From an uncultured Brachyspira sp. (lineage in GTDB: Bacteria > Spirochaetota > Brachyspiria > Brachyspirales > Brachyspiraceae), in assembly GCF_944390845.1 (NCBI RefSeq), contig NZ_CALXRM010000015.1, positions 1 to 55,018 of the forward strand: a stretch of DNA of 55,018 bases, read 5' to 3'. Shown here in pieces: positions 4,240 to 44,527 of this stretch. How positions within the stretch are numbered: position 1 is the stretch's first letter; the number at the start of each line of letters is the position of its first letter. The notes under the pieces are model-generated. The model had not been told where the DNA came from. It searched no databases and worked only from the letters and a program-made list of their open reading frames with translations. A program made the translations under genes and the position numbers.

Positions 4240-4944
4240 TTAATTATGCACATAAGTTCCTATATTTTCGCCTGAAATAGCTTTAGTAATGTTGCCAGGT
4301 TTATTCATATTAAATACTCTTATAGGCATATCATTGTCATTAGCCATAGCGAAAGCAGTCATATCCATAACACGTAAATTTTGATTCATAACTTCTCTAA
4401 AAGTAATATCATTATACATTTTTGCATCTTCATTCTTTTTTGGATCTTTATCATATACACCATCAACATTAGTACCTTTCAATACTATAGAAGCACCTAT
4501 TTCTAAAGCTCTTAATATTGCAGTACTGTCAGTTGTAAAGTATGGATTAGAAGTACCGCCAGCTATAATTAAAACATTTCCTCTTTCTAAGATACGAATA
4601 GCTTTATCTCTTTCAAATCCTTCTATCATGCCTTCAATATTAAAAGCAGAAAGTATTTGAGTTGGAGTACCAGCTGCCATAAATCTGTCTTTTAATGCTA
4701 TAGCGTTCATAATAGTTGCAAGCATACCCATAGAATCAGCTGTAGCTCTTACCATTCCTGTTTTATTAGATAATTGCATTCCTCTAAAAATGTTTCCGCC
4801 GCCTACTACAACTGCTATTTGTGTATCATGTCCAGCTTCTCTCATTTCTAATGCTATTCTATCAACTACACTATTATCAATACCATATTCTTTTTGTCCA
4901 AGCAATGCTTCACCTGATATTTTAAGCAATACTCTTTTTTCCAT
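4240..4944 (-). CDS. pyrH: Uridylate (UMP) kinase
   Basis: A 234-residue bacterial-type UMP kinase of the amino-acid-kinase fold, which phosphorylates UMP to UDP in pyrimidine nucleotide synthesis. Visible signatures are KISGEALLG near the N-terminus, the glycine-rich VVVGGGNIFRG, the nucleotide-binding stretch GGTSNPYFTTDSTAILRA and the C-terminal VFNMNKPGNI. Length and motifs are complete. In many bacteria pyrH lies between tsf and frr. Here it is instead followed by floA, and neither tsf nor frr is in the window. The ATG at 4942-4944 is preceded by a GAGAGGT ribosome-binding site. Confidence 0.97.
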   Translation of the reverse strand: MEKRVLLKISGEALLGQKEYGIDNSVVDRIALEMREAGHDTQIAVVVGGGNIFRGMQLSNKTGMVRATADSMGMLATIMNAIALKDRFMAAGTPTQILSAFNIEGMIEGFERDKAIRILERGNVLIIAGGTSNPYFTTDSTAILRALEIGASIVLKGTNVDGVYDKDPKKNEDAKMYNDITFREVMNQNLRVMDMTAFAMANDNDMPIRVFNMNKPGNITKAISGENIGTYVHN

Positions 4945-9824: not shown

Positions 9825-9852
9825 AATTAGTTTTTATATTGTTATTATTTTC

Positions 9853-10147
9853 GTGGACTAGTCCCCGAACCCCTACTTCTTTTGCCGACGCTCTGCATGC
9901 CGTAGGCAAGGCACCTACTCGGTGGTGACCCAAAGAAGCTATATCCTCGACAGGCTCGGATACGCTTCGCGAAGGACTACATTTTTTACTAAAATTTAAG
10001 GCATTAAACTACTTTTAATATATATTTTTAAAATATAAGGCTGTAGTATATGCGTTTTTCGCTCTGCGTGCGTAGGCAGCAACTTTGACGAAGTCCGCAG
10101 AGCGTGAGCGACAAAAAAGTTGATAATATATTTAAAAAATATAAAAA
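9853..10147. repeat. G+C-rich mosaic repeat island A
   Basis: Most of the 557-bp gap between oppA and the MMPL gene is AT-rich, but 9853-9990 and 10050-10115 are conspicuously G+C-rich. The first block (GTCCCCGAACCCC through the GAAGCTATATCC stretch to about 9990) matches the reverse complement of 45070-45207 and 44723-44870, and the + strand of 21481-21565. The second block is a hairpin with arms CGCTCTGCG (10060-10068) and CGCAGAGCG (10096-10104). Short reading frames inside it look spurious. Confidence 0.75.
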
Positions 10148-10176: not shown

Positions 10177-12456
10177 CTAATTTTTATCAATCAATTTATT
10201 AAACTTGAAAAGTACAGGGGAAAGAATAAATGATGATAAAACCCCTATAAATAAAAATAAACCGAATGATTTAACTGGTATAAATCCGCTGAATGCCAAG
10301 GTACCAAAGGATAATACTGTTGTCATCATAGATAAAAATACTGCTAAAAATGTAATCTCTTTATCTGCCGCACTGTTTGAGAAAAATATTGCATAGTCAA
10401 TTGATATTCCTATAGAAAGTATCAAAGCAAATATTGAAAATATATTTATATTCATTCCAAATATTGAATGTAATGATAAATTAATCAATATTGACATTAA
10501 TTGAACTAATATTATAGCCAAAGCTTGTTTTTTATTAAAGAATATCATCACAGCTATGAATATTATTATATATGCAATAACAGCCATTTTTATAGCAGTT
10601 TTTGCAGTACTGTCTAATGCATCATTAATTTCTTGATTTAAATTAAATATCTTAACATCATTATTAGTAACTTTCATAACATCGTTAGTATTGTAATCAC
10701 TTGTTGCTATAAGAAAATATTTATTATTATTTGTAGTAATAATCTTTTTTAAATCACTAAAATCTGGTTCTTCAATTATTTTATTTATATCAAGAATTTT
10801 ATTTTTAGTATTTTCAAATTCTAATTTTATTTTATTATATGAAGCTTCATTTAAATCAAGTGCATTAATTTGATCTTTTAAAAGAGGCATTAATTTTTCT
10901 TCTACAAGTTTTATATTATCTCTTTGTCTTTCATCTGAATAAAGTACTCTTGATATAGCCATATAGTTATTAGTGAAATTATCTCCTATACTTTCTTCTG
11001 CCAATAATGCCTTTGAAAGAGTATCTCCTCTCGATATTATTATATTTTTTGTCAAAGATGTATTCAATCTTTTATAAACTTCTGTTTCACTCTTTAATAA
11101 AAAGTCTGGTGTATTATAAAGCTGATTGGCTGAAAAATTAACTTTTATCCTTGGTATTGATATTACAGAAATTAAAACTAAAATTATAAAAAGTATGGAT
11201 ACTGTTTTTATATTAATTATTTTAACATAACTATTTAATATATTTTTACTTCCATTTAATATAGAACTCTTTATTTCTCTTTTATCATTTTTAAATACTA
11301 TAGGATATATTATGTTTACTGTCAAAAATGAACTTACAAGTCCGAATATAGAAAATAAAGCTATTTGTTTTAATAATGTAAGAGAAGTTAAAGATAATGA
11401 TAAATAACTTATTATAGTAGTTAAAAAACCTAAAAGCATACTAGGAAATATTTTTTTTAATACTTCCTTTTTATCTTTTTCATTATACCATTCTGTTATA
11501 AAATGTATTGAATGGTCTATCGATATACCTATTAAACTTGTACCAAATACGAATGTAAATATATGCAAAGAATTAAAAAATATAGATGATAATAAAAATG
11601 CCGTACCGCCAGCCAAAAATATTGTACACATTGATACAATATAAGGCTTTATAGATTTAAATATAAAGATAAATATTATAGAAATAACTATCAATGAAAC
11701 AATAGATATAATAGTAATTTCACTCTTTGCACTCTTTTGGCTGTAATAAGTATGTATTGGAACACCAGATATATATACATTTATATCTTCATTACTTTCT
11801 AAATCATTTAAATAAGATGTAAGATTATCAAAAAAATCTTCACTGTCTATTTTTTTAGGCATGTCTATATTAATTAGAACATTGTATTTATTTTCATAAT
11901 TTATAAATTGTATTCCATCTCTTGATTCCACATTATTTTCTGAAACTAGAATTTCATTTATTTTAGAATTAACAACAAAGAAAGGATCATCTTCAACATT
12001 ATCAACTATAGGTATAAAGAATGGAGAATAAAAATTAGCAAGAGAATTTTCAGCAACAATATCTGCCTCATCATTCAATAAATAATCTCTTATCTCTTTT
12101 GAAAGAAGTTGATATTTATATTTAATCATCATTTCCAATATATTATCATAACTTTTAGAACGTAAATTCACAGCAACATTAGTATTTAAATCTTTTATAT
12201 AACTTTCTAATTTTAATGCATTATCTTTTGCTGCATCAAAATTTTCACTTTCTATGAATATCTTTACGCTGCTTGAATTTTTTAGAAAGAAATCTTCTAA
12301 TGGTTTTTGAAAATCTTTATCTTCAAGAAATTTAGGTGTTATGGATAAAAAATTTGTATCTATCTTTGCTATTTTATCATGTCTTATTATGAATACAGCA
12401 ACTGCAAATAAATGAAAAAATATCCATAAACCTATTAAAAATTTTCTCTTACTCAA
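10177..12456 (-). CDS. MMPL/RND-type exporter of an aryl-polyene-like cluster (ApeM-like)
   Basis: A 759-residue polytopic membrane protein with two repeated halves. Each half has one N-terminal helix, a large extracytoplasmic domain (about residues 30-235 and 440-620) and a five-helix bundle. This is the MMPL pattern seen in exporters of lipids and polyene pigments. The ISIDHSIHF and ISIDYAIFF segments in the two halves carry the conserved membrane acidic residues expected for proton-driven transport. Its start overlaps the end of the LolA-like gene by 8 bp, indicating translational coupling. In aryl polyene clusters the LolA-like and MMPL genes are paired for export of the product to the outer membrane. 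That role here is inferred from context. Confidence 0.85.
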   Translation of the reverse strand: MSKRKFLIGLWIFFHLFAVAVFIIRHDKIAKIDTNFLSITPKFLEDKDFQKPLEDFFLKNSSSVKIFIESENFDAAKDNALKLESYIKDLNTNVAVNLRSKSYDNILEMMIKYKYQLLSKEIRDYLLNDEADIVAENSLANFYSPFFIPIVDNVEDDPFFVVNSKINEILVSENNVESRDGIQFINYENKYNVLINIDMPKKIDSEDFFDNLTSYLNDLESNEDINVYISGVPIHTYYSQKSAKSEITIISIVSLIVISIIFIFIFKSIKPYIVSMCTIFLAGGTAFLLSSIFFNSLHIFTFVFGTSLIGISIDHSIHFITEWYNEKDKKEVLKKIFPSMLLGFLTTIISYLSLSLTSLTLLKQIALFSIFGLVSSFLTVNIIYPIVFKNDKREIKSSILNGSKNILNSYVKIINIKTVSILFIILVLISVISIPRIKVNFSANQLYNTPDFLLKSETEVYKRLNTSLTKNIIISRGDTLSKALLAEESIGDNFTNNYMAISRVLYSDERQRDNIKLVEEKLMPLLKDQINALDLNEASYNKIKLEFENTKNKILDINKIIEEPDFSDLKKIITTNNNKYFLIATSDYNTNDVMKVTNNDVKIFNLNQEINDALDSTAKTAIKMAVIAYIIIFIAVMIFFNKKQALAIILVQLMSILINLSLHSIFGMNINIFSIFALILSIGISIDYAIFFSNSAADKEITFLAVFLSMMTTVLSFGTLAFSGFIPVKSFGLFLFIGVLSSFILSPVLFKFNKLIDKN

Positions 12457-13018
12457 AATATTTTGTCTCCTCAGGAGTTAAAGAATTAGATTTTGATAAA
12501 ACTTTCATTATATATTCAGTTGTACTATTATTTGAAGAATACATTTTTATTTTTTCTATATAACCGGCAGAAGCAAAACTAACTTCTATTTTGTCTATTA
12601 CTTTTTTTAATTCCTCAGTTTTAGGAGTATAAACAGTAACTCCATTTTCAGAAGTATGATTAAAAGAATCTTTTATAGTTTTTTCATCATAAGTAAATAT
12701 TGATTTTATTATATTAGCTATTTGAGAAAACATAGCATTACTTGAATCTGCCATAACTTTCTTTTTACCGTTTGGAAGTATCTGAGTAACATTTTTATCT
12801 CCCATAACAGTGATTGATTCTTTAGGGCTTTTAGTAAACCAACATATACCATAACCGCTTGCAACAATGAAATCCCCTGAAGATTCAAAACTTCTTCCTT
12901 TCTGTGTAACTATTTGTGTATAAGTACCTTTTAAAAGTTTAGCGTTCTTGTATTCGTCTTTAACTTGGCATAATAAAATAGAAGCCATTGCAATAAATAT
13001 TATAAAAATTTTTCTCAT
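12449..13018 (-). CDS. LolA-like outer-membrane carrier (ApeL-like)
   Basis: A 189-residue exported protein from the ATG at 13016-13018, which is preceded by AGGAAG. A longer frame starting at 13072 lacks a sensible signal peptide. Residues 1-17 form a hydrophobic signal. The mature region has the LKGTYTQIVTQKGRSFESSGDFIV stretch and the G-x-x-W-F-T-K-S-P pattern of the LolA/DUF1571 fold, a half beta barrel that binds acyl chains. It overlaps the MMPL exporter gene by 8 bp. In aryl-polyene operons this protein is thought to help carry the lipidated polyene across the periplasm. A general lipoprotein chaperone role is less likely given the neighbours. Confidence 0.8.
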   Translation of the reverse strand: MRKIFIIFIAMASILLCQVKDEYKNAKLLKGTYTQIVTQKGRSFESSGDFIVASGYGICWFTKSPKESITVMGDKNVTQILPNGKKKVMADSSNAMFSQIANIIKSIFTYDEKTIKDSFNHTSENGVTVYTPKTEELKKVIDKIEVSFASAGYIEKIKMYSSNNSTTEYIMKVLSKSNSLTPEETKYFE

Positions 13019-13095
13019 TTTACACTTCCTAATATTATTTATATAGTATGATATATAATACAATAAAAACAAAAATTGTAAAAAAAATTTTATAT

Positions 13096-13530
13096 TTAAT
13101 TATTAATTCTTTCTATTCTTTCAATAAAATCTTTTGGACTATTTAAAAAACCTTTTCTAGTTTCTGAATCTATAGGCATTTGCAATGTAGATGATCTTGA
13201 TATTACCTTATTATCTTCATCATAAAAAGTATATTCTATTTTCATACCATTTAAATACTCTATTAAAGCAGTATGAATTCTCACTTTTTGATTTAATTTA
13301 ATAGAATTAATATATTTTACTTCCAATTTTACTATAGGCCACATTACACCTTTAGCAGTCATAATATCATAATTATAATCTATAATTTCAAGCATAGCCT
13401 CCCTAGCCTGCTCCATAAACTTTATATAATTGCCATGCCAAACAACTCCCATAGGATCTAAATCATAGAAAGAAGGTTTTATATAATAATCATTCTCTAA
13501 ATAAATCTTTTTATTTGTATTTTTACCCAT
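13096..13530 (-). CDS. Acyl-CoA thioesterase, 4HBT hot-dog family (ApeK-like)
   Basis: A 144-residue YbgC/FadM-type hot-dog thioesterase. The signature FYDLDPMGVVWHGNYIKF places the catalytic Asp at residue 25 and the conserved His at 32, followed by the E-Q-A-R helix. Family enzymes hydrolyse acyl-CoA or acyl-ACP thioesters. The gene starts 3 bp after the acyltransferase gene and is followed by LolA/MMPL, the order seen in aryl polyene clusters, where a thioesterase is expected to release or proofread the chain. The physiological substrate is inferred from context. Confidence 0.87.
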   Translation of the reverse strand: MGKNTNKKIYLENDYYIKPSFYDLDPMGVVWHGNYIKFMEQAREAMLEIIDYNYDIMTAKGVMWPIVKLEVKYINSIKLNQKVRIHTALIEYLNGMKIEYTFYDEDNKVISRSSTLQMPIDSETRKGFLNSPKDFIERIERINN

Positions 13531-13533
13531 AAA

Positions 13534-14496
13534 TTAATTCCCCTTATACCAAAAATCATGGAAATTATACCATTGATAAGGATATTCTATAGCTTTTTGT
13601 TCTATAATGGAAGCAAATTCTTTAGTTAATTCTAATATAAGTTCATTTTTTCTTTTTCTGTTCTTTGATTCTTCACTATCCAACTTTATTTTTGAAGAAT
13701 GTATATAAAAATTATATTTCTTTGAAAGTATTTTATCATTCTCTCTTAAAGCGAAGAAATAATAAACAGGATATTTAAGAAGTATAGGAATCAAAAAAGC
13801 ACCGCATGGAAAAGGAGCATCTTCCCCTAAAAAATTTATATAATTTACTCTGTCTGTTTTATTAGAAGTTCTATCACCTGCTATAGCTACTATTTCACCA
13901 TTATTTAATTTATTTTCAATACTTATAATAGTTTCAGGTCCTATATTGGAAGCATCAATAAAATCTATAAATGAATTATTTTTACCTTCACCCATTAATA
14001 TATTAACATTTTTATTTACTCTAGAATCTATTATTATATTTATCTTATAATTTTTAATAGGATTGCCTTCATTAATAACAGCCAATGCCTTTAAAAGCTC
14101 AACATTTCCTATATGAGAAAATAATATTATCATACCGTTTTTATTATTAAGCAATTCAATAACTTTCTCATAATCATCTTTAGTTTTTATTATCAAATCT
14201 TTTATAGGTATATCTCCATTCCAAGCTGCTATTTTTTCTGAAATAGAAACTACAAATGAAAGTAAATGCTTATATGAACAAATAAAATTAGACTTTATTT
14301 TTTTATTATATTTTGACATTCTTCTAAGATAATCTCTTGAAGCCTGCATTCTGGTTTTAGAATAGAAAAAATAAACAATACTTATAGGTATTAGGTATAT
14401 TATTATGAACATTCTTCCTAATATTTTATAAACAAAAGCAGAAAATACTGCCTTCCACCTATTGCCTATTTCTTTTTCCTCACTCCAATGACTCAT
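13534..14496 (-). CDS. LpxL/HtrB-like acyltransferase (ApeJ-like)
   Basis: A 320-residue lysophospholipid-acyltransferase-superfamily protein with a membrane helix at about residues 27-46. The catalytic H-x4-E motif appears as SHIGNVE at about residues 127-133. The later G-D-R segment and the P-x-GAFLIPILLKYPV segment match the LpxL/HtrB branch. Such enzymes transfer acyl chains from acyl-ACP to membrane lipids or glycolipids. In aryl polyene operons an acyltransferase of this type attaches the polyene to its lipid anchor. It lies 12 bp after the dehydratase gene and 3 bp before the thioesterase gene, all on the minus strand. Confidence 0.85.
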   Translation of the reverse strand: MSHWSEEKEIGNRWKAVFSAFVYKILGRMFIIIYLIPISIVYFFYSKTRMQASRDYLRRMSKYNKKIKSNFICSYKHLLSFVVSISEKIAAWNGDIPIKDLIIKTKDDYEKVIELLNNKNGMIILFSHIGNVELLKALAVINEGNPIKNYKINIIIDSRVNKNVNILMGEGKNNSFIDFIDASNIGPETIISIENKLNNGEIVAIAGDRTSNKTDRVNYINFLGEDAPFPCGAFLIPILLKYPVYYFFALRENDKILSKKYNFYIHSSKIKLDSEESKNRKRKNELILELTKEFASIIEQKAIEYPYQWYNFHDFWYKGN

Positions 14497-14508
14497 AAGA
14501 TAAAACCT

Positions 14509-14847
14509 CTAAGCAAAATACAATTTGCCGTCTGAATATTTTTTATCTTCATCATATATCTTAAAAGAAAGTATATTATTCAAACAATGACATTCTATGG
14601 TAACATTTGTATTTGGAAAAATCATATTTACGAATTTTAATTTTAAAAGTCTATTGATATCAAAATCTCTATTAAAAAGATTTTTAGATATATCAACAGC
14701 AATCTTTACTTGAGCTATAGCAGGCAAAAGTTTAAAATTCTCAAAATGCCCGTCAAAATAAGGCAAATTTTCACTTATAAAAAGCTTAACTTTAAACATA
14801 TCTTGAGTATGTTCATCTATAGTATAATTAGCAATATCACTATACAA
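14509..14847 (-). CDS. FabA/FabZ-type hot-dog dehydratase (ApeI/ApeP-like)
   Basis: A 112-residue single-domain hot-dog protein. The key motif is YFDGHFENFKLLPAIAQV, corresponding to the F-x-GHFPG-x-PLLPG signature of 3-hydroxyacyl-ACP dehydratases, with His34 as the catalytic histidine. The second glycine and proline of the classical motif are changed to Glu-Asn and Ala. The protein is short for FabZ (about 145 residues) but fits the small dehydratases of aryl polyene clusters, which form the conjugated double bonds. It starts 1 bp after the ligase gene, a sign of tight coupling. Confidence 0.78.
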   Translation of the reverse strand: MYSDIANYTIDEHTQDMFKVKLFISENLPYFDGHFENFKLLPAIAQVKIAVDISKNLFNRDFDINRLLKLKFVNMIFPNTNVTIECHCLNNILSFKIYDEDKKYSDGKLYFA

Positions 14848-14848
14848 T

Positions 14849-16195
14849 TTAATTTCCTTGCATTATAGCATCAAGTGCTTTTCTGTCTACCTTTCCAATC
14901 TCGCTTCTTGGAATACTGTCTACAAAATATATTTTTTTAGGTAAAACAACAGTTTCAAAATATCCTTTTAAATACTCAATAGTATATTTTTTCATCTCTT
15001 CAATATTATTATTGCTTCCATTAAGAACTACAAAAGAAACAACATATTCTCTTTTTTCAGATTTACAATATATAGTATAACTGTCTTTAAAATGCTTATC
15101 CTGTAAAATTTGTCTGTCTATTTGCTGAACACTTATTCTTTTACCTTCAATTTTTACAATAGAGTCTTCCCTTCCTAAAAGTTCAAACTCATTTTCATTT
15201 TTCATATTAACAACATCGCCGACATGTATCCAGATATTATCACCTGTATAACCTGAACAGCATTCTATACTTCCATTCTCATCAACTTTCAAACTTACAA
15301 CGCTTAATCTTGTCCATAATTCATTTTCGCTTCTTCTTCTAAAAGCCATTGCACCAGCTTCAGTACTTCCGTAAATCTCTGTAGCATCTGTATTAAACAC
15401 CTCTTTACAAAGATCATTAACACTTTTATCAAGTACTCCTGTAGATGAAAATAAATACCATTTGGATTTTATTTTCAATGAAGATTTATCTATTCTCTTT
15501 AAGAATGCTGGTGTTGTTACTACTGTAATCTTATCGTACTGTGCAAAATTATTCATAGTTTCTAAATAATTTATTCTGTTATTAATACATTTTAATTCCA
15601 ACATATATGGAACTAACACAGCAAATACAAAACCATAACTATGATAATGAGGAACTGTATATAAAAATACAGAATCTTTTATTTCATCAGTAAATTGATT
15701 AACTATTTTAGTAGCTTCTGCCTCAAATTGCTTTAAAGTCTTTTCTATAAGTTTAGGGTGACCTGTTGAACCTGATGTATAAAAATTGATAAATACATTT
15801 TCATCAATAATAGTTTCTTTAAGCAAATCAAACCATTTATCATTAGTACTGCTGTTAAATACTTCGTCTAAATTAAAAGCAGATTTTTCAGTATCGGATA
15901 TATAAACCATAGTATTGTCTACTATGCTTTCAACATATTTAGGGCTATTATTATTCAAAACATTAACCCTTTTTTTAAGTATAAATCCTGCTGTAATAAT
16001 AGAAATAAATCTATAAGTATCTTCAATAAATACTGTAATAGTATCTTCTTTATATTTAGAAATATATTCCAAACATTTTACTATATCATTTACATATTCT
16101 TTATACTTTATAAAACTTTTATTTTCCTTATGAATAAGAAAAATATCCTCTGAATCTTTTAATAAATAAAAATTTGTATTGCTTAATTTTCTCAT
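14849..16195 (-). CDS. AMP-dependent acyl/aryl-ACP ligase (ApeH-like)
   Basis: A 448-residue ANL-superfamily adenylation enzyme. The phosphate-binding loop FYTSGSTGHPKLIEKT is at about residues 138-153 and the A5-type motif EIYGSTEAGAMAFRR near residue 275. The HVGDVV and GREDSIVKIEGKRI motifs follow, ending with the catalytic lysine in S-E-I-G-K-V-D-R-K. It activates a carboxylic acid as an acyl-AMP and loads it on a thiol carrier. The immediate upstream ACP gene (10 bp away) suggests it primes that ACP. In characterised aryl polyene systems the primer is an aromatic acid; that is an inference here, as no ammonia-lyase gene is present. Confidence 0.9.
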   Translation of the reverse strand: MRKLSNTNFYLLKDSEDIFLIHKENKSFIKYKEYVNDIVKCLEYISKYKEDTITVFIEDTYRFISIITAGFILKKRVNVLNNNSPKYVESIVDNTMVYISDTEKSAFNLDEVFNSSTNDKWFDLLKETIIDENVFINFYTSGSTGHPKLIEKTLKQFEAEATKIVNQFTDEIKDSVFLYTVPHYHSYGFVFAVLVPYMLELKCINNRINYLETMNNFAQYDKITVVTTPAFLKRIDKSSLKIKSKWYLFSSTGVLDKSVNDLCKEVFNTDATEIYGSTEAGAMAFRRRSENELWTRLSVVSLKVDENGSIECCSGYTGDNIWIHVGDVVNMKNENEFELLGREDSIVKIEGKRISVQQIDRQILQDKHFKDSYTIYCKSEKREYVVSFVVLNGSNNNIEEMKKYTIEYLKGYFETVVLPKKIYFVDSIPRSEIGKVDRKALDAIMQGN

Positions 16196-16205
16196 AATAT
16201 TGTTT

Positions 16206-16466
16206 TTATTTGTTATCTGAATTTTCTCTTATATATTTAGCTAAAGTTGCAACAGAATAGAAATGTTTTTTATTGTTTTCTTCTATATCAGAAAAACTTA
16301 TATTAAATTTCTTTCTAATAGCAACACCTATCTCTAATGCATCTATAGAATCAAGACCTAATTCATCTCCAAATAATGGAGCATCAGTATCTATATCATC
16401 TATTGTCATACCTTCTAAATTTGCTGCTTCTATCACTATTTGTTTTATTTGGTCTTCAATACTCAT
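16206..16466 (-). CDS. Acyl carrier protein (ApeE/F-like)
   Basis: An 86-residue ACP. The phosphopantetheine attachment site is Ser40 in the DELGLDSIDALE motif. The rest is acidic and helical, as expected. It sits between the ketosynthase-like gene and the AMP ligase in a biosynthetic operon, not beside fabF or plsX, so it is likely dedicated to this pathway. The start follows an AGGAG ribosome-binding site. Aryl polyene clusters usually encode two ACPs; only one was found here. Confidence 0.92.
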   Translation of the reverse strand: MSIEDQIKQIVIEAANLEGMTIDDIDTDAPLFGDELGLDSIDALEIGVAIRKKFNISFSDIEENNKKHFYSVATLAKYIRENSDNK

Positions 16467-16511
16467 TTTATAATTCTCCTTAAAATAATTATTATCTAAA
16501 AATATAGAAAA

Positions 16512-17216
16512 TCATCTTTTTGTTAATTCGATTTTACCCAATTTCAAATTAGTACTGTCTGTTGATATAAATTTTATAAAATCTATAATAGAATTTTCAT
16601 CTTTTTTAGTGTCATTTTCTAACATATCAATACAAATATTAGGATTGTCTTTAGATATAAGAAAAGAACATGCAAAAGAATAATTAATGTCTTTAGATAT
16701 TTCTTCATAACTTTCCGGTAATCTTTCATCAGCTATGATTATAAGGGCTTCATTATGATTAGAAGTTTTTAAAAAAGCCATAGCTTGAACAAGTGCTGTA
16801 TCTATAAAATTATCATAACAAGTAACAGCAATAGCTCTTTCATGATTTTGATAAAATATAGTAAGCTGTGCTACCGCAGTATTAAAAACAGAAAAACTGA
16901 AAAGAGCCGGAGAAACCTCATGTTCTGTAACTATCTTCTTTGAAATATTATATTGCTGCTTTATTTCTCCATATTTTGATACAAAAAATATAGGCATTTG
17001 TTCATTTTCTTTTATTATATTTTTTACAGATTCAAATGATAATTTAGTTATTTGACTAAGCCTTCTTTTTTGTGCCCTTGGTATAAAGTCTAAATCTGGA
17101 TTAGTATCGCCATAAGTAATTTTTATATCATTATTTATATTGTCTAATATAAACTTTTTATCCATATCTGGAGCAAAAAAGTCCCAATCCAGCACTCTAA
17201 AACATAAATCCGACAT
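16512..17216 (-). CDS. Beta-ketoacyl synthase-like protein without active cysteine (ApeC-like)
   Basis: A 234-residue protein resembling the N-terminal domain of beta-ketoacyl synthases, in the short ketosynthase-like branch found in aryl polyene clusters. The segment SPALFSFSVFNTAVAQLTIFY (about 140-160) aligns with S-P-x-x-FS-x-SVHNA of that branch. No nucleophilic Cys in a ketosynthase context is present. At about half the length of a real ketosynthase, it is unlikely to catalyse condensation alone and may be a chain-length or partner subunit. It is the first gene of the eight-gene operon, driven by the promoter at 17256-17283. Confidence 0.75.
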   Translation of the reverse strand: MSDLCFRVLDWDFFAPDMDKKFILDNINNDIKITYGDTNPDLDFIPRAQKRRLSQITKLSFESVKNIIKENEQMPIFFVSKYGEIKQQYNISKKIVTEHEVSPALFSFSVFNTAVAQLTIFYQNHERAIAVTCYDNFIDTALVQAMAFLKTSNHNEALIIIADERLPESYEEISKDINYSFACSFLISKDNPNICIDMLENDTKKDENSIIDFIKFISTDSTNLKLGKIELTKR

Positions 17217-17255: not shown

Positions 17256-17283
17256 ATTATACTAAATTATAGTATAAAGTCAA
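17256..17283 (-). promoter_or_regulatory. Promoter of the aryl-polyene-like operon
   Basis: On the minus strand TTGACT (17278-17283) and TATAAT (17256-17261) are separated by 16 bp. It is back-to-back with the MerR-type promoter starting at 17337. Confidence 0.6.
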
Positions 17284-17336: not shown

Positions 17337-17367
17337 TTGACATTGGAGTGCACTCCAATGTTATAAT
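17337..17367 (+). promoter_or_regulatory. MerR-type promoter/operator 1 (merR1)
   Basis: TTGACA (17337-17342) and TATAAT (17362-17367) have a 19-bp spacer, the hallmark of MerR-activated promoters. The spacer region is occupied by a perfect 20-bp palindrome at 17341-17360 (CATTGGAGTG/CACTCCAATG). It precedes the merR1 gene, implying autoregulation. Confidence 0.85.
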
Positions 17368-17434: not shown

Positions 17435-17818
17435 ATGACAATAGCAGAAGTCAGCAAAAAAATGGAATTATCCACTGATACATTAAGGTATTATGAAAGA
17501 ATAGGAATAATTCCTGAGGTAGAAAGAAGCGAAAGCGGAATAAGAAATTATACTGATCATGATTTAGCTTGGATAGAATTTGCTAAATATATGAGAAGTG
17601 CCGGAATGGGTATAGAATCATTGATAGAATATATAAAACTATACAATAAAGGAGATGCCACATTAGAAGCAAGAAAACAATTACTAATAGATCAAAGAGA
17701 AACAATAGTAAATAGAATAAATGAACTTAAAGAAACATTAGAAAAATTAGACTTTAAAATACAAAATTATGATACAAAAATGAGAGAATGTGAAAACAGA
17801 CTATCTAAAAATAATTAA
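17435..17818 (+). CDS. MerR-family transcriptional regulator 1
   Basis: A 127-residue MerR regulator of the AdhR/NmlR-like type. The winged helix-turn-helix occupies residues 1-70 (MTIAEVSKKMELSTDTLRYYER then GIRNYTDHDL), followed by a long dimerisation coiled coil at about 80-120. Such proteins bind the over-long spacer of target promoters and untwist it to activate transcription. The only cysteine is near the C-terminus (C-E-N-R-L), so a classical metal or thiol site near the hinge is not evident and the inducer is unknown. The gene lies behind its own 19-bp-spacer promoter and is followed after 19 bp by a cyclophilin-like lipoprotein gene. Confidence 0.92.
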   Translation: MTIAEVSKKMELSTDTLRYYERIGIIPEVERSESGIRNYTDHDLAWIEFAKYMRSAGMGIESLIEYIKLYNKGDATLEARKQLLIDQRETIVNRINELKETLEKLDFKIQNYDTKMRECENRLSKNN

Positions 17819-18294: not shown

Positions 18295-18325
18295 TTGACA
18301 TTGGAGTGCACTCTAATGCTATAAT
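18295..18325 (+). promoter_or_regulatory. MerR-type promoter/operator 2 (AKR operon)
   Basis: TTGACA (18295-18300) and TATAAT (18320-18325) are 19 bp apart. The dyad at 18299-18318 (CATTGGAGTG/CACTCTAATG) differs from operator 1 by one base. It precedes the three-AKR operon. Confidence 0.85.
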
Positions 18326-42157: not shown

Positions 42158-44527
42158 TTAAAACTTTTCTGTCAATCTTAAATCCCATATTAAAAGTATA
42201 AGCCAAGTATATATGAATCTATTACTTGCATTATTAAACTCTATATTAATTTTTATTTTTTCATCATAGTTAGTTTCGTTATTTATAATTTTTGTTCTTA
42301 TATAAAATTCTTGATTATTATATGAATCTTTAAAAGAATAACCATTAATTTCGTAATAACTTTTATGTTCTGTATTCATATCATATCTTTGAGAAAATGC
42401 TTTTATTGTACCGTAGTTTATTTCTATATTTTGTAATTTGTTTAATGCTTCTTCTAAATTATTTATTTTTATATTTGTAAACTGCATTATAGGCTGTGAT
42501 AATTCATAATCTTCAAGCTGTTTTTTCCATTTTGATATAATTTCTTCATCCATTTCTATAGGACTTGATAAACTTACAAAATAATTATTATTTATATTCA
42601 CTGTATTATCATCGCAGTTGGTATAACTTCCATCGCCTGAATATCTGAATGTTGTTATAAAATTATTATTTTCATCAAACAAATTCCAAACTAAATTAAT
42701 TGCAAATTTATTCATTATTGTATTATCAATAAATATTTCTTTGAAAAAATTGAAATCGTACTTTTTACCTGTTAATAAAATTTTTATTAAATTTCTGCTT
42801 TGATTTTTTATAATATTCGGAATTTCTTTCTTTATGTATTTAATTTCTTCTTTTGTACTATCATCAAAATCTTTAGGTATTTGTTTTAATATTTTATTTT
42901 CTTTGATATCAAAAAACTCTATAGTATAATCGTTTTTCAAAATTATTTTATATTGATTATTATTTATTATTTTCTCACCGTTTTTATCAAAATCAAAATT
43001 TGGTATAGCTTTTAATCCGAATTCATAAACACTCAAATTATTTTCTTCTGCTATATCCTGAATTATTCTTTCTGCCATCTCTTTTACTTCAGATTTTTTA
43101 CTTTTCTTAAACACATTATAAAGCATATTAACAGCATATTTACTGTTTTTATTGATAGAACATACAAGTAAACATAATTTAGAATCTTTTTCTTTTTTAT
43201 AAATTTCTCTTAATGCTTCATCGCCTCCATATATTCCATACATAATGAGAGAAGTTTCTTTATTAGTGATTGTGTATATTGTTTTAATTGCATTTATAAA
43301 TGATTTTTTATCAAGCAAATTTATAATATAATCTATTTGTTTTATTCTGTAGGCTTCTCTTTTTAATTCTAAATATGATAAGTAAATATATTTTATTATT
43401 CTTTTATCTATATTTTCTATTTTTATATCATCTATAAATTTTACTTTTTTATCATCTTTTTTATTATAGTTTTTATCTATATAATTATAAACTTCTTCTA
43501 TACTATTAAAACTTTCAATATAATTTGGTATTAACTCTTTTAATTCATTATAAAAATTATTTATTAAATATCTTTTAAGCAGATTAAGTTTTTTATTTTT
43601 ATGGTTTTCTATAATTTTGTATATTTCTTTGACATTGTTTTTTATAAAATCATATAAATTATTTTTTTCTTCTTTATCTAAAGTTAAAGCATATAAATAA
43701 ATTTTGAATTTAAAAGTTAATTCTAATGCAGAATCTTTATTAAAATTACTCATATCCGTAATATTATCAATATTCCAATCATCTAAATTCTGATTGAATG
43801 ATGATGTATTTGAAAACATACTTCCTACATCTTTTAATTTTTTTGTATTCCAATTATTAATAGGGCGATTAAAATCTATTGCAAACATAAACATGCATCT
43901 CATATTAGTAACATTGCTTACATTCCAATTATTAAGAGACTGATTAAATGCATAAGCTAATGAAAACATACCAGACATCTCTTTTACTTTAGAAGTATCC
44001 CATTTAAATAAAGGCTGATTGAATCTATATGCAGATGAAAACATACCAGCCATATTTTCTACATTACTTACATTCCAATCATTTATATTTTGATTAAAAC
44101 TCTCAGCACGATTAAACATATCGCTCATACTTTGAACTTTACTTACATTCCAATTATTAAGAGGCTGATTAAAACTTTTAGCATTCATAAACATGCTATT
44201 CATATTTGTAACATTGCTTACGTCCCAATCATTCAAAGGCTGATTAAATTTTTCAGCCAAGAAAAACATATAGGCTGTATTTTTCACTTTAGATACATTC
44301 CATTTACTAATATCTTTATTAAAATTCCTATTAGCAGAAAACATACCAGCCATATTTTCTACATTAGAAGTATCCCAATTTTCTATACCATCATAATTAT
44401 CTCTATTAAAAAAATCAAATAAGTTTGACATGTCAGTTATTAAGCTTGTATCTATATCGCCCAAGTAAATACTTTCATCTGTTACTAAATCTCTTAATTC
44501 TTTCCTGCTTGTAGGTTTATATTTCAT
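42158..44527 (-). CDS. DUF285 (BspA-type) repeat protein fused to DUF4132-like domain
   Basis: A 789-residue protein with no signal peptide. Residues about 36-262 contain seven or so tandem 33-residue repeats with the W-N-V-S-N-V-x-N-M-x-x-M-F-x-x-A-x-x-FNQ-x-L pattern of DUF285/BspA leucine-rich-type repeats. The middle (about 270-555) is lysine-rich and mostly helical. Residues about 575-690 resemble DUF4132: SRNLIKILLTGKKYDFN, the INLVWNLFDENNN block and the WKKQLEDYELSQPIMQF segment. DUF285 repeats are common in surface proteins of host-associated bacteria, but without a signal this protein would be cytoplasmic. A 28-bp repeat-borne promoter (44601-44628) points at it. Confidence 0.82.
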   Translation of the reverse strand: MKYKPTSRKELRDLVTDESIYLGDIDTSLITDMSNLFDFFNRDNYDGIENWDTSNVENMAGMFSANRNFNKDISKWNVSKVKNTAYMFFLAEKFNQPLNDWDVSNVTNMNSMFMNAKSFNQPLNNWNVSKVQSMSDMFNRAESFNQNINDWNVSNVENMAGMFSSAYRFNQPLFKWDTSKVKEMSGMFSLAYAFNQSLNNWNVSNVTNMRCMFMFAIDFNRPINNWNTKKLKDVGSMFSNTSSFNQNLDDWNIDNITDMSNFNKDSALELTFKFKIYLYALTLDKEEKNNLYDFIKNNVKEIYKIIENHKNKKLNLLKRYLINNFYNELKELIPNYIESFNSIEEVYNYIDKNYNKKDDKKVKFIDDIKIENIDKRIIKYIYLSYLELKREAYRIKQIDYIINLLDKKSFINAIKTIYTITNKETSLIMYGIYGGDEALREIYKKEKDSKLCLLVCSINKNSKYAVNMLYNVFKKSKKSEVKEMAERIIQDIAEENNLSVYEFGLKAIPNFDFDKNGEKIINNNQYKIILKNDYTIEFFDIKENKILKQIPKDFDDSTKEEIKYIKKEIPNIIKNQSRNLIKILLTGKKYDFNFFKEIFIDNTIMNKFAINLVWNLFDENNNFITTFRYSGDGSYTNCDDNTVNINNNYFVSLSSPIEMDEEIISKWKKQLEDYELSQPIMQFTNIKINNLEEALNKLQNIEINYGTIKAFSQRYDMNTEHKSYYEINGYSFKDSYNNQEFYIRTKIINNETNYDEKIKINIEFNNASNRFIYTWLILLIWDLRLTEKF

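Follow-up and report, generated by a model that had tools for sequence, protein, structure and literature searches.

Genes at the locus

The sequence analysed here, referred to as the window, is a stretch of 55,018 nucleotides which constitutes the entire contig C15 of a 3.43 Mb draft genome (133 contigs) of an uncultured Brachyspira, a spirochaete, as a preliminary description of this DNA had recognised. It carries eight genes on the minus strand (10177-17216) related to those of aryl polyene (APE) biosynthesis. The genes are separated by gaps of 45, 10, 1, 12, 3 and 23 nt and by a single 8-nt overlap; read from the sequence, they are real and form a single operon. Pfam matches across the operon (Ketoacyl-synt_2, PP-binding, AMP-binding, ApeI-like, Lip_A_acyltrans, 4HBT_2, LolA, MMPL/ACR_tran) agree with the domains named in that description. 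The promoter and the genes, with lengths in amino acids (aa), are:

17256..17283, minus strand: predicted operon promoter of sigma-70 type, TTGACT-16-TATAAT; scan score 11 of 12, among the highest
16512..17216, minus strand: ApeC-like chain-length factor, 234 aa; PF13723 E=3e-36, best match E. coli ApeC
16206..16466, minus strand: ApeE-like acyl carrier protein (ACP), 86 aa; PF00550, GLDSIDAL motif with Ser40
14849..16195, minus strand: ApeH-like AMP-forming acyl-ACP synthetase, 448 aa; PF00501, best match E. coli ApeH E=2e-35
14509..14847, minus strand: ApeI-like hot-dog dehydratase subunit, 112 aa; PF22818 E=3e-7, above cut-off, E. coli ApeI E=2e-10
13534..14496, minus strand: ApeJ acyltransferase half, LpxL-like, 320 aa; PF03279, HX4E motif
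13096..13530, minus strand: ApeK-like 4HBT thioesterase, 144 aa; PF13279, 37% identity to E. coli ApeK
12449..13072, minus strand: ApeL LolA-like periplasmic carrier; PF03548 E=2e-11, E. coli ApeL E=5e-11
10177..12456, minus strand: predicted ApeM lipid exporter of MMPL/RND type, 759 aa; PF03176/PF00873, E. coli ApeM E=2e-37 over almost its full length

When compared by BLAST with the 18 proteins of the APE cluster of E. coli CFT073 (apeA-R; L181), the eight operon proteins find their best matches in the colinear series ApeC-E-H-I-J-K-L-M. Such a run of colinear best matches is, by sequence comparison, far beyond chance and bears out the APE-like order of accessory genes proposed earlier. The chain-length factor is a half-size ketosynthase (KS) without the catalytic Cys motif, and its sole PDB matches are ApeC chains (7f28_A, 6qsp_B). 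The carrier protein, the sole ACP of the operon, shares 54% identity with E. coli ApeE, clearly above ApeF. The ApeI-like subunit has a GHF motif with His34, an uncertain start codon and a weak match to PDB 6qsr_A. The ApeJ-type acyltransferase aligns solely to residues 248-549 of E. coli ApeJ; the glycosyltransferase half is therefore absent. The true start of ApeL probably lies downstream of the listed TTG; in several relatives the protein has about 190-192 aa. The nearest named relatives of the cluster are in Brachyspira alvinipulli, B. innocens, B. hampsonii, B. catarrhinii and B. sp. G79, and the operon promoter is kept in five Brachyspira species.

Ketosynthase and ketoreductase on a second contig

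As noticed before, the window contains no condensing KS, no ketoreductase (KR) and no aromatic ammonia-lyase; the absence of the lyase (PF00221) holds throughout the 26 Brachyspira genomes of our genus survey. From this it had been concluded that the operon lacks ketosynthases and a ketoreductase of its own, and a second locus, the use of fatty-acid synthase enzymes or a different lipid-linked product, the last of which may still apply, had been offered as ways out. The conclusion does not stand; the apparent gap reflects where the window ends and the relocation of a gene block. A search of the same genome for the KS family returned FabF on contig C25, thiolases and one extra KS on the 7967-base contig C112, which carries the anticipated second locus:

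C112:4560-6992, plus strand: apeO-P-Q, encoding a KS of 394 aa, an ApeP-like dehydratase of 167 aa and a FabG2-like KR of 244 aa, all in intact frames

The best E. coli CFT073 matches of the three proteins are ApeO, ApeP and ApeQ. The top PDB match of the KS is ApeO (6qsp_A, 212 bits), the best FabF reaching 119 bits. In the KS tree it falls, on a long branch, into the ApeO clade (support 0.968), apart from FabF and ApeR, and with about 30% identity it and the genome's FabF are separate proteins. By these comparisons it is not of the FabF/FabB type of the housekeeping fatty-acid synthase. The KR is 49% identical to E. coli ApeQ. The dehydratase matches E. coli ApeP with E=3e-8 and has the P-H and E-Y-x-A-Q motifs; its identification rests partly on synteny. 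The search for ApeO, ApeQ and ApeR homologues suggested in the preliminary description was thus successful for ApeO and ApeQ. No second KS of the ApeR type was found in the genome, where a PF00109 search gave FabF and ApeO only, thiolases aside.

These data bear on the option that the operon, lacking a dedicated KS and KR, makes use of the fatty-acid synthesis enzymes FabF and FabG. Such borrowing would suit the window taken alone, FabF and FabG being encoded on C25, and also the locus of a deep-branching species (G034) without apeQ and apeK. Nevertheless we consider it highly improbable and have rejected it: the KS groups with ApeO and not with FabF, and a dedicated apeO-P-Q block, which is under purifying selection and follows the operon in its distribution, makes borrowing unnecessary. 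By sequence and distribution, operon and apeO-P-Q are two loci of one pathway with its own ape-type KS and KR.

Arrangement and distribution in Brachyspira

Chain-length factor and ligase have the same distribution, being present together in 17 of 26 genomes. An ape-type KS (ApeO, >=676 bits, that is at least 676 bits) is present in 16 of these and in none of the nine others, where only FabF appears at about 90 bits. The exception, B. catarrhinii (G147), is represented by an assembly that is 88% complete and in 990 contigs. Among seven regions around the chain-length factor that were compared, five (G171, G022, G113, G072, G065) have apeO-P-Q on the same strand directly behind apeM, with a broken apeP frame in G022, and the named loci L100-L102, L104-L107 and L109 share this arrangement. 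In the deep-branching G034, apeO is divergent and adjoins apeC, and the locus contains neither apeK nor apeQ.

Several frames in these relatives deserve mention in their own right. The apeP frame of G034 (L071 11385-12365) continues into chromate-transporter-like sequence, and frames are broken in apeP of B. alvinipulli (L069 15583-16076) and in apeM of B. sp. G79 (L101), by decay or by draft sequencing errors.

Since apeO-P-Q stand directly behind apeM in most related Brachyspira, the block in the genome studied here appears to have been relocated, not lost. Homology of the window to the relatives ends at the end of apeM, and the position taken by apeO-P-Q in the relatives is occupied by a repeat:

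9845..10125, minus strand: dispersed GC-rich repeat directly behind apeM

This repeat has 61 matching stretches over the contigs of the AT-rich genome, one of them 98% identical on C18. On C112, homology to the relatives' fliS region stops at about 4377, and homology to their apeM-apeO spacer starts at about 4488. A rearrangement which moved apeO-P-Q and the following ankyrin-repeat gene beside a fliS-lipoprotein locus is the likeliest explanation of this layout. Alternatively, C112 could be misassembled and the genome could truly have the contiguous cluster of its relatives. The draft state in 133 contigs and a dispersed repeat right behind apeM, where assemblies break, speak for an assembly error. 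On the other hand, the sequence at the C112 junction (4377-4488) is unique, with no strong second copy found in the genome, and the window crosses the repeat into a neighbour gene which in one relative lies downstream of apeO-P-Q. We therefore regard misassembly as distinctly unlikely. Under either explanation the gene content is the same and the genes are present and intact.

Signs of function and proposed pathway

All 11 genes, the relocated three included, are under purifying selection, with ratios of nonsynonymous to synonymous substitution rates (dN/dS) of 0.03-0.39 against three relatives. The catalytic residues that other APE clusters conserve are also kept here: Cys155, His285 and His319 of the KS, Ser40 of the carrier protein, His34 of ApeI and Glu62 of ApeP, as are the HX4E motif of the acyltransferase, Ser143/Tyr156/Lys160 of the KR, and the P-loop and Lys435 of the ligase. 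Of the hallmarks of an APE pathway, predicted proteins were found for an ApeO-ApeC pair of KS and chain-length factor, for ApeH with ApeE, for an ApeI-ApeP pair and for the KR ApeQ.

We conclude, with a probability of roughly three in four, that the window carries the larger half of an APE-type type II polyketide pathway and C112 the smaller half, apeO-P-Q. This reading draws on the identity and order of the genes, their joint occurrence, the purifying selection on them and the intact catalytic motifs, and the pathway looks complete because the enzymes supposed to be missing sit elsewhere in the same genome. The individual enzymatic steps and a polyene product are proposed by analogy with the APE systems of E. 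coli and Xenorhabdus. ApeH would adenylate a starter acid and load it onto the carrier protein ApeE, and the ApeO-ApeC pair would elongate it with malonyl units. Each beta-keto unit would be reduced by ApeQ and dehydrated by the ApeI-ApeP pair; as no enoyl reduction would follow, conjugated double bonds would accumulate. ApeK may serve as thioesterase or proofreader. The ApeJ-type acyltransferase would join the chain to an envelope lipid, and ApeM and ApeL would carry the product to the outer membrane.

Several points weigh against an APE-type pathway. First, ApeP is weak by sequence (22 bits against a cut-off of 27; PDB E=0.024). Second, the cluster has no ApeR, ApeD, ApeG, ApeN or second ACP, most of which E. 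coli requires to make its complete lipid. Third, four routes to a 4-hydroxybenzoate or cinnamate starter were sought and all are absent from the 26 Brachyspira genomes. Fourth, the ligase differs at motif positions from almost every other ApeH compared. The absence of ApeR is not prohibitive, since ApeO-ApeC without ApeR yields full-length polyene in vitro (PMC8358021) and an E. coli apeR deletion still makes the main APE lipid, apeR and apeF being not strictly required (PMC8253772). ApeF, the second ACP, is not in the Brachyspira cluster, which has one ACP only; a single ACP has a precedent in xanthomonadin clusters without a second one (PMC8253772). As to envelope and export functions, the acyltransferase half of J as well as K, L and M are present, and D, G and N are absent from the cluster.

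The starter acid

The preliminary description counted an aromatic ammonia-lyase among the missing APE genes. Such a lyase is not required: the E. coli APE cluster has neither a lyase nor any starter-making enzyme of its own and draws 4-hydroxybenzoate from UbiC (PMC8253772). Besides the ammonia-lyase, chorismate lyase (UbiC, PF04345), an Rv2949c-like enzyme (PF01947) and an FkbO/Hyg5 chorismatase (TIGR04444) are absent from the 26 Brachyspira genomes, all of which have chorismate synthase (26/26). In B. hyodysenteriae the pentose phosphate pathway is reported not to be used for the synthesis of aromatic amino acids (PMC2650404). An aromatic acid may be taken up, and the starter could be such an exogenous aryl acid or a different acid. 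Because a source of aromatic starter was sought and not found, we class the system as APE-type machinery in a reduced form and refrain from calling it an established producer of aryl polyenes.

The ligase itself has diverged. In an alignment of 10 Brachyspira sequences with 46 others, mostly ApeH with a few likely general acyl-CoA ligases, Gly252 is replaced by Thr in all 10 Brachyspira and is Gly in 45 of the 46. Thr280 to Ala, Gly282 to Ala, Ile186 to Ser and His184 to Tyr are likewise changed in 10/10 Brachyspira at positions near-invariant in the others, while Tyr187 of the HxYG motif is retained. By motif alignment with characterised ANL ligases, the changed positions presumably lie around the acid-binding pocket. 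The C112 KS has Phe317, next to a catalytic His, where the other ApeO sampled have Thr. Given these ligase changes and Phe317, a different starter acid is possible; such changes could also have come about by drift along a long branch. An AlphaFold2 model of ApeH is an ordinary ANL ligase (mean predicted local distance difference test score, pLDDT, 85.6), and a Foldseek comparison of the model with the PDB matched aryl, fatty acid and acetate ligases alike, which does not separate specificities. The ApeH family profile was also run against solved structures to map the pocket; its best matches were adenylation domains of nonribosomal peptide synthetases with a poorly aligned pocket, and this approach was discarded as unusable.

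Within the APE-type reading, the product could be a classical aryl polyene, for which ApeH would use an aromatic acid (4-hydroxybenzoate, for example) that is obtained from the gut or produced by an enzyme not recognised as such, and the missing tailoring genes would merely simplify head group and lipid anchor. We rate this narrower form a little short of even. ApeH, ApeE, ApeO and ApeC are orthologous to aryl-polyene enzymes, the conserved Tyr187 and the genus-wide chorismate synthase fit, and the E. coli cluster likewise has no starter-making enzyme of its own. It is at odds with the lack of all four supply enzymes in the genus, with the absence of ApeB, the methyltransferase of the aryl head in E. 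coli, and with the fixed Gly252Thr, Thr280Ala and Gly282Ala changes. As a second candidate, the altered ligase might load a short, aliphatic or branched acid and the remaining steps proceed as in APE, to give a non-aryl polyene or unsaturated acyl lipid. We regard this as possible rather than probable. The ligase changes fixed throughout the genus, Thr317Phe beside the catalytic His of the KS, the long KS branch and the loss of aryl tailoring and aryl supply genes point in its direction; long-branch drift could produce the same changes, and the modelled ligase fits aryl and fatty acid ligases equally.

It is a tentative and rather unlikely idea that, with a non-aromatic starter, the APE machinery of these gut spirochaetes has been re-tooled to make envelope polyene lipids of a new class. 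If true, such a lipid might, speculatively, alter the interaction of the cell with host membranes, like other bacterial polyene lipids.

Neighbouring genes

Upstream of the operon lies a divergent regulator followed by aldo-keto reductases:

17435..17818, plus strand: NmlR-type MerR regulator; NF041849 NmlR 146 bits, below the curated cut-off of 175

The regulator is treated here as a neighbour and not as part of the pathway. A 16-bp dyad of NmlR operator type, TTGGAGTGCACTCCAA, at 17343-17358 lies within a MerR-type promoter before it, with a spacing of 19 bp as read from the sequence. A second copy with one mismatch (18301-18316) lies in a 19-bp-spaced promoter before an aldo-keto reductase; such a pair has a chance expectation of 0.01 in the window. 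The operon promoter, which has ordinary spacing, lies over 50 bp away from the dyad. As the dyads belong to the promoters of the regulator and the aldo-keto reductase and the operon promoter is separate, co-regulation of operon and redox genes is not supported. An antioxidant link to this redox island, drawn earlier, thus finds no support at the promoter level, where the operon is served by a conserved sigma-70 promoter of its own and the dyads lie elsewhere. At another site of the window (42158-44527), a protein joins DUF285 repeats of Mycoplasma type to a DUF4132 domain.

Significance

With these findings, the range of APE-type lipid biosynthesis comes to include Brachyspira, whose members are intestinal spirochaetes, animal pathogens among them. 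A literature search found no paper linking Brachyspira with aryl polyene or arylpolyene, and broader searches of titles and abstracts found no such cluster; metagenome papers naming both Treponema and arylpolyene clusters do exist. As the genus divides naturally into carriers and non-carriers of the cluster, the role of the cluster can be tested. The reduced gene set amounts to a natural experiment on the dispensability of APE genes, and the starter ligase, in its diverged form, offers a handle on head-group choice.

Comparison with known systems

With the APE cluster of E. coli CFT073, Brachyspira shares 11 orthologues in the same order, C-E-H-I-J-K-L-M-O-P-Q, and with the same catalytic motifs. 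In contrast to E. coli, the Brachyspira cluster is without ApeA, B, D, F, G, N, R and the glycosyltransferase half of ApeJ, O-P-Q are unlinked in the genome studied, UbiC is lacking and the motif positions of the ligase are altered. The APE systems of Xenorhabdus doucetiae and Acinetobacter baumannii (PDB 6qsp, 6qsr, 7f28) have homologues of ApeO-ApeC and ApeI-ApeP and the half-size chain-length factor in common with Brachyspira; they differ in having ApeR and two ACPs, and the Brachyspira KS has Phe317 against Thr in the other sampled ApeO. The Brachyspira LolA and KR give weak matches to the flexirubin clusters of Bacteroidota (FlxB, LolA2_flexi). Assignment to a flexirubin cluster was rejected on scores of 42.8 against a cut-off of 125 and 221.8 against a cut-off of 340, and no ammonia-lyase is present.

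Some Treponema-type loci (L084, L138) have C, E, H-I, K, O, P and Q, with J, L and M not in the stretch; there the chain may therefore stay unexported or use other genes. APE-type loci of Treponema and other Spirochaetales and of Fibrobacter (L075-L087, L110-L179) often have ApeH fused to ApeI. They usually also have ApeB, ApeD, a second ACP and the glycosyltransferase half of ApeJ, and often ApeR; those of Fibrobacter and some Spirochaetales have an aromatic lyase (ASGDL motif), which Brachyspira is without. Their core and gene order are as in Brachyspira, whose KS groups with spirochaete ApeO in the KS tree (support 0.866) and whose cluster corresponds to the eleven-gene core.

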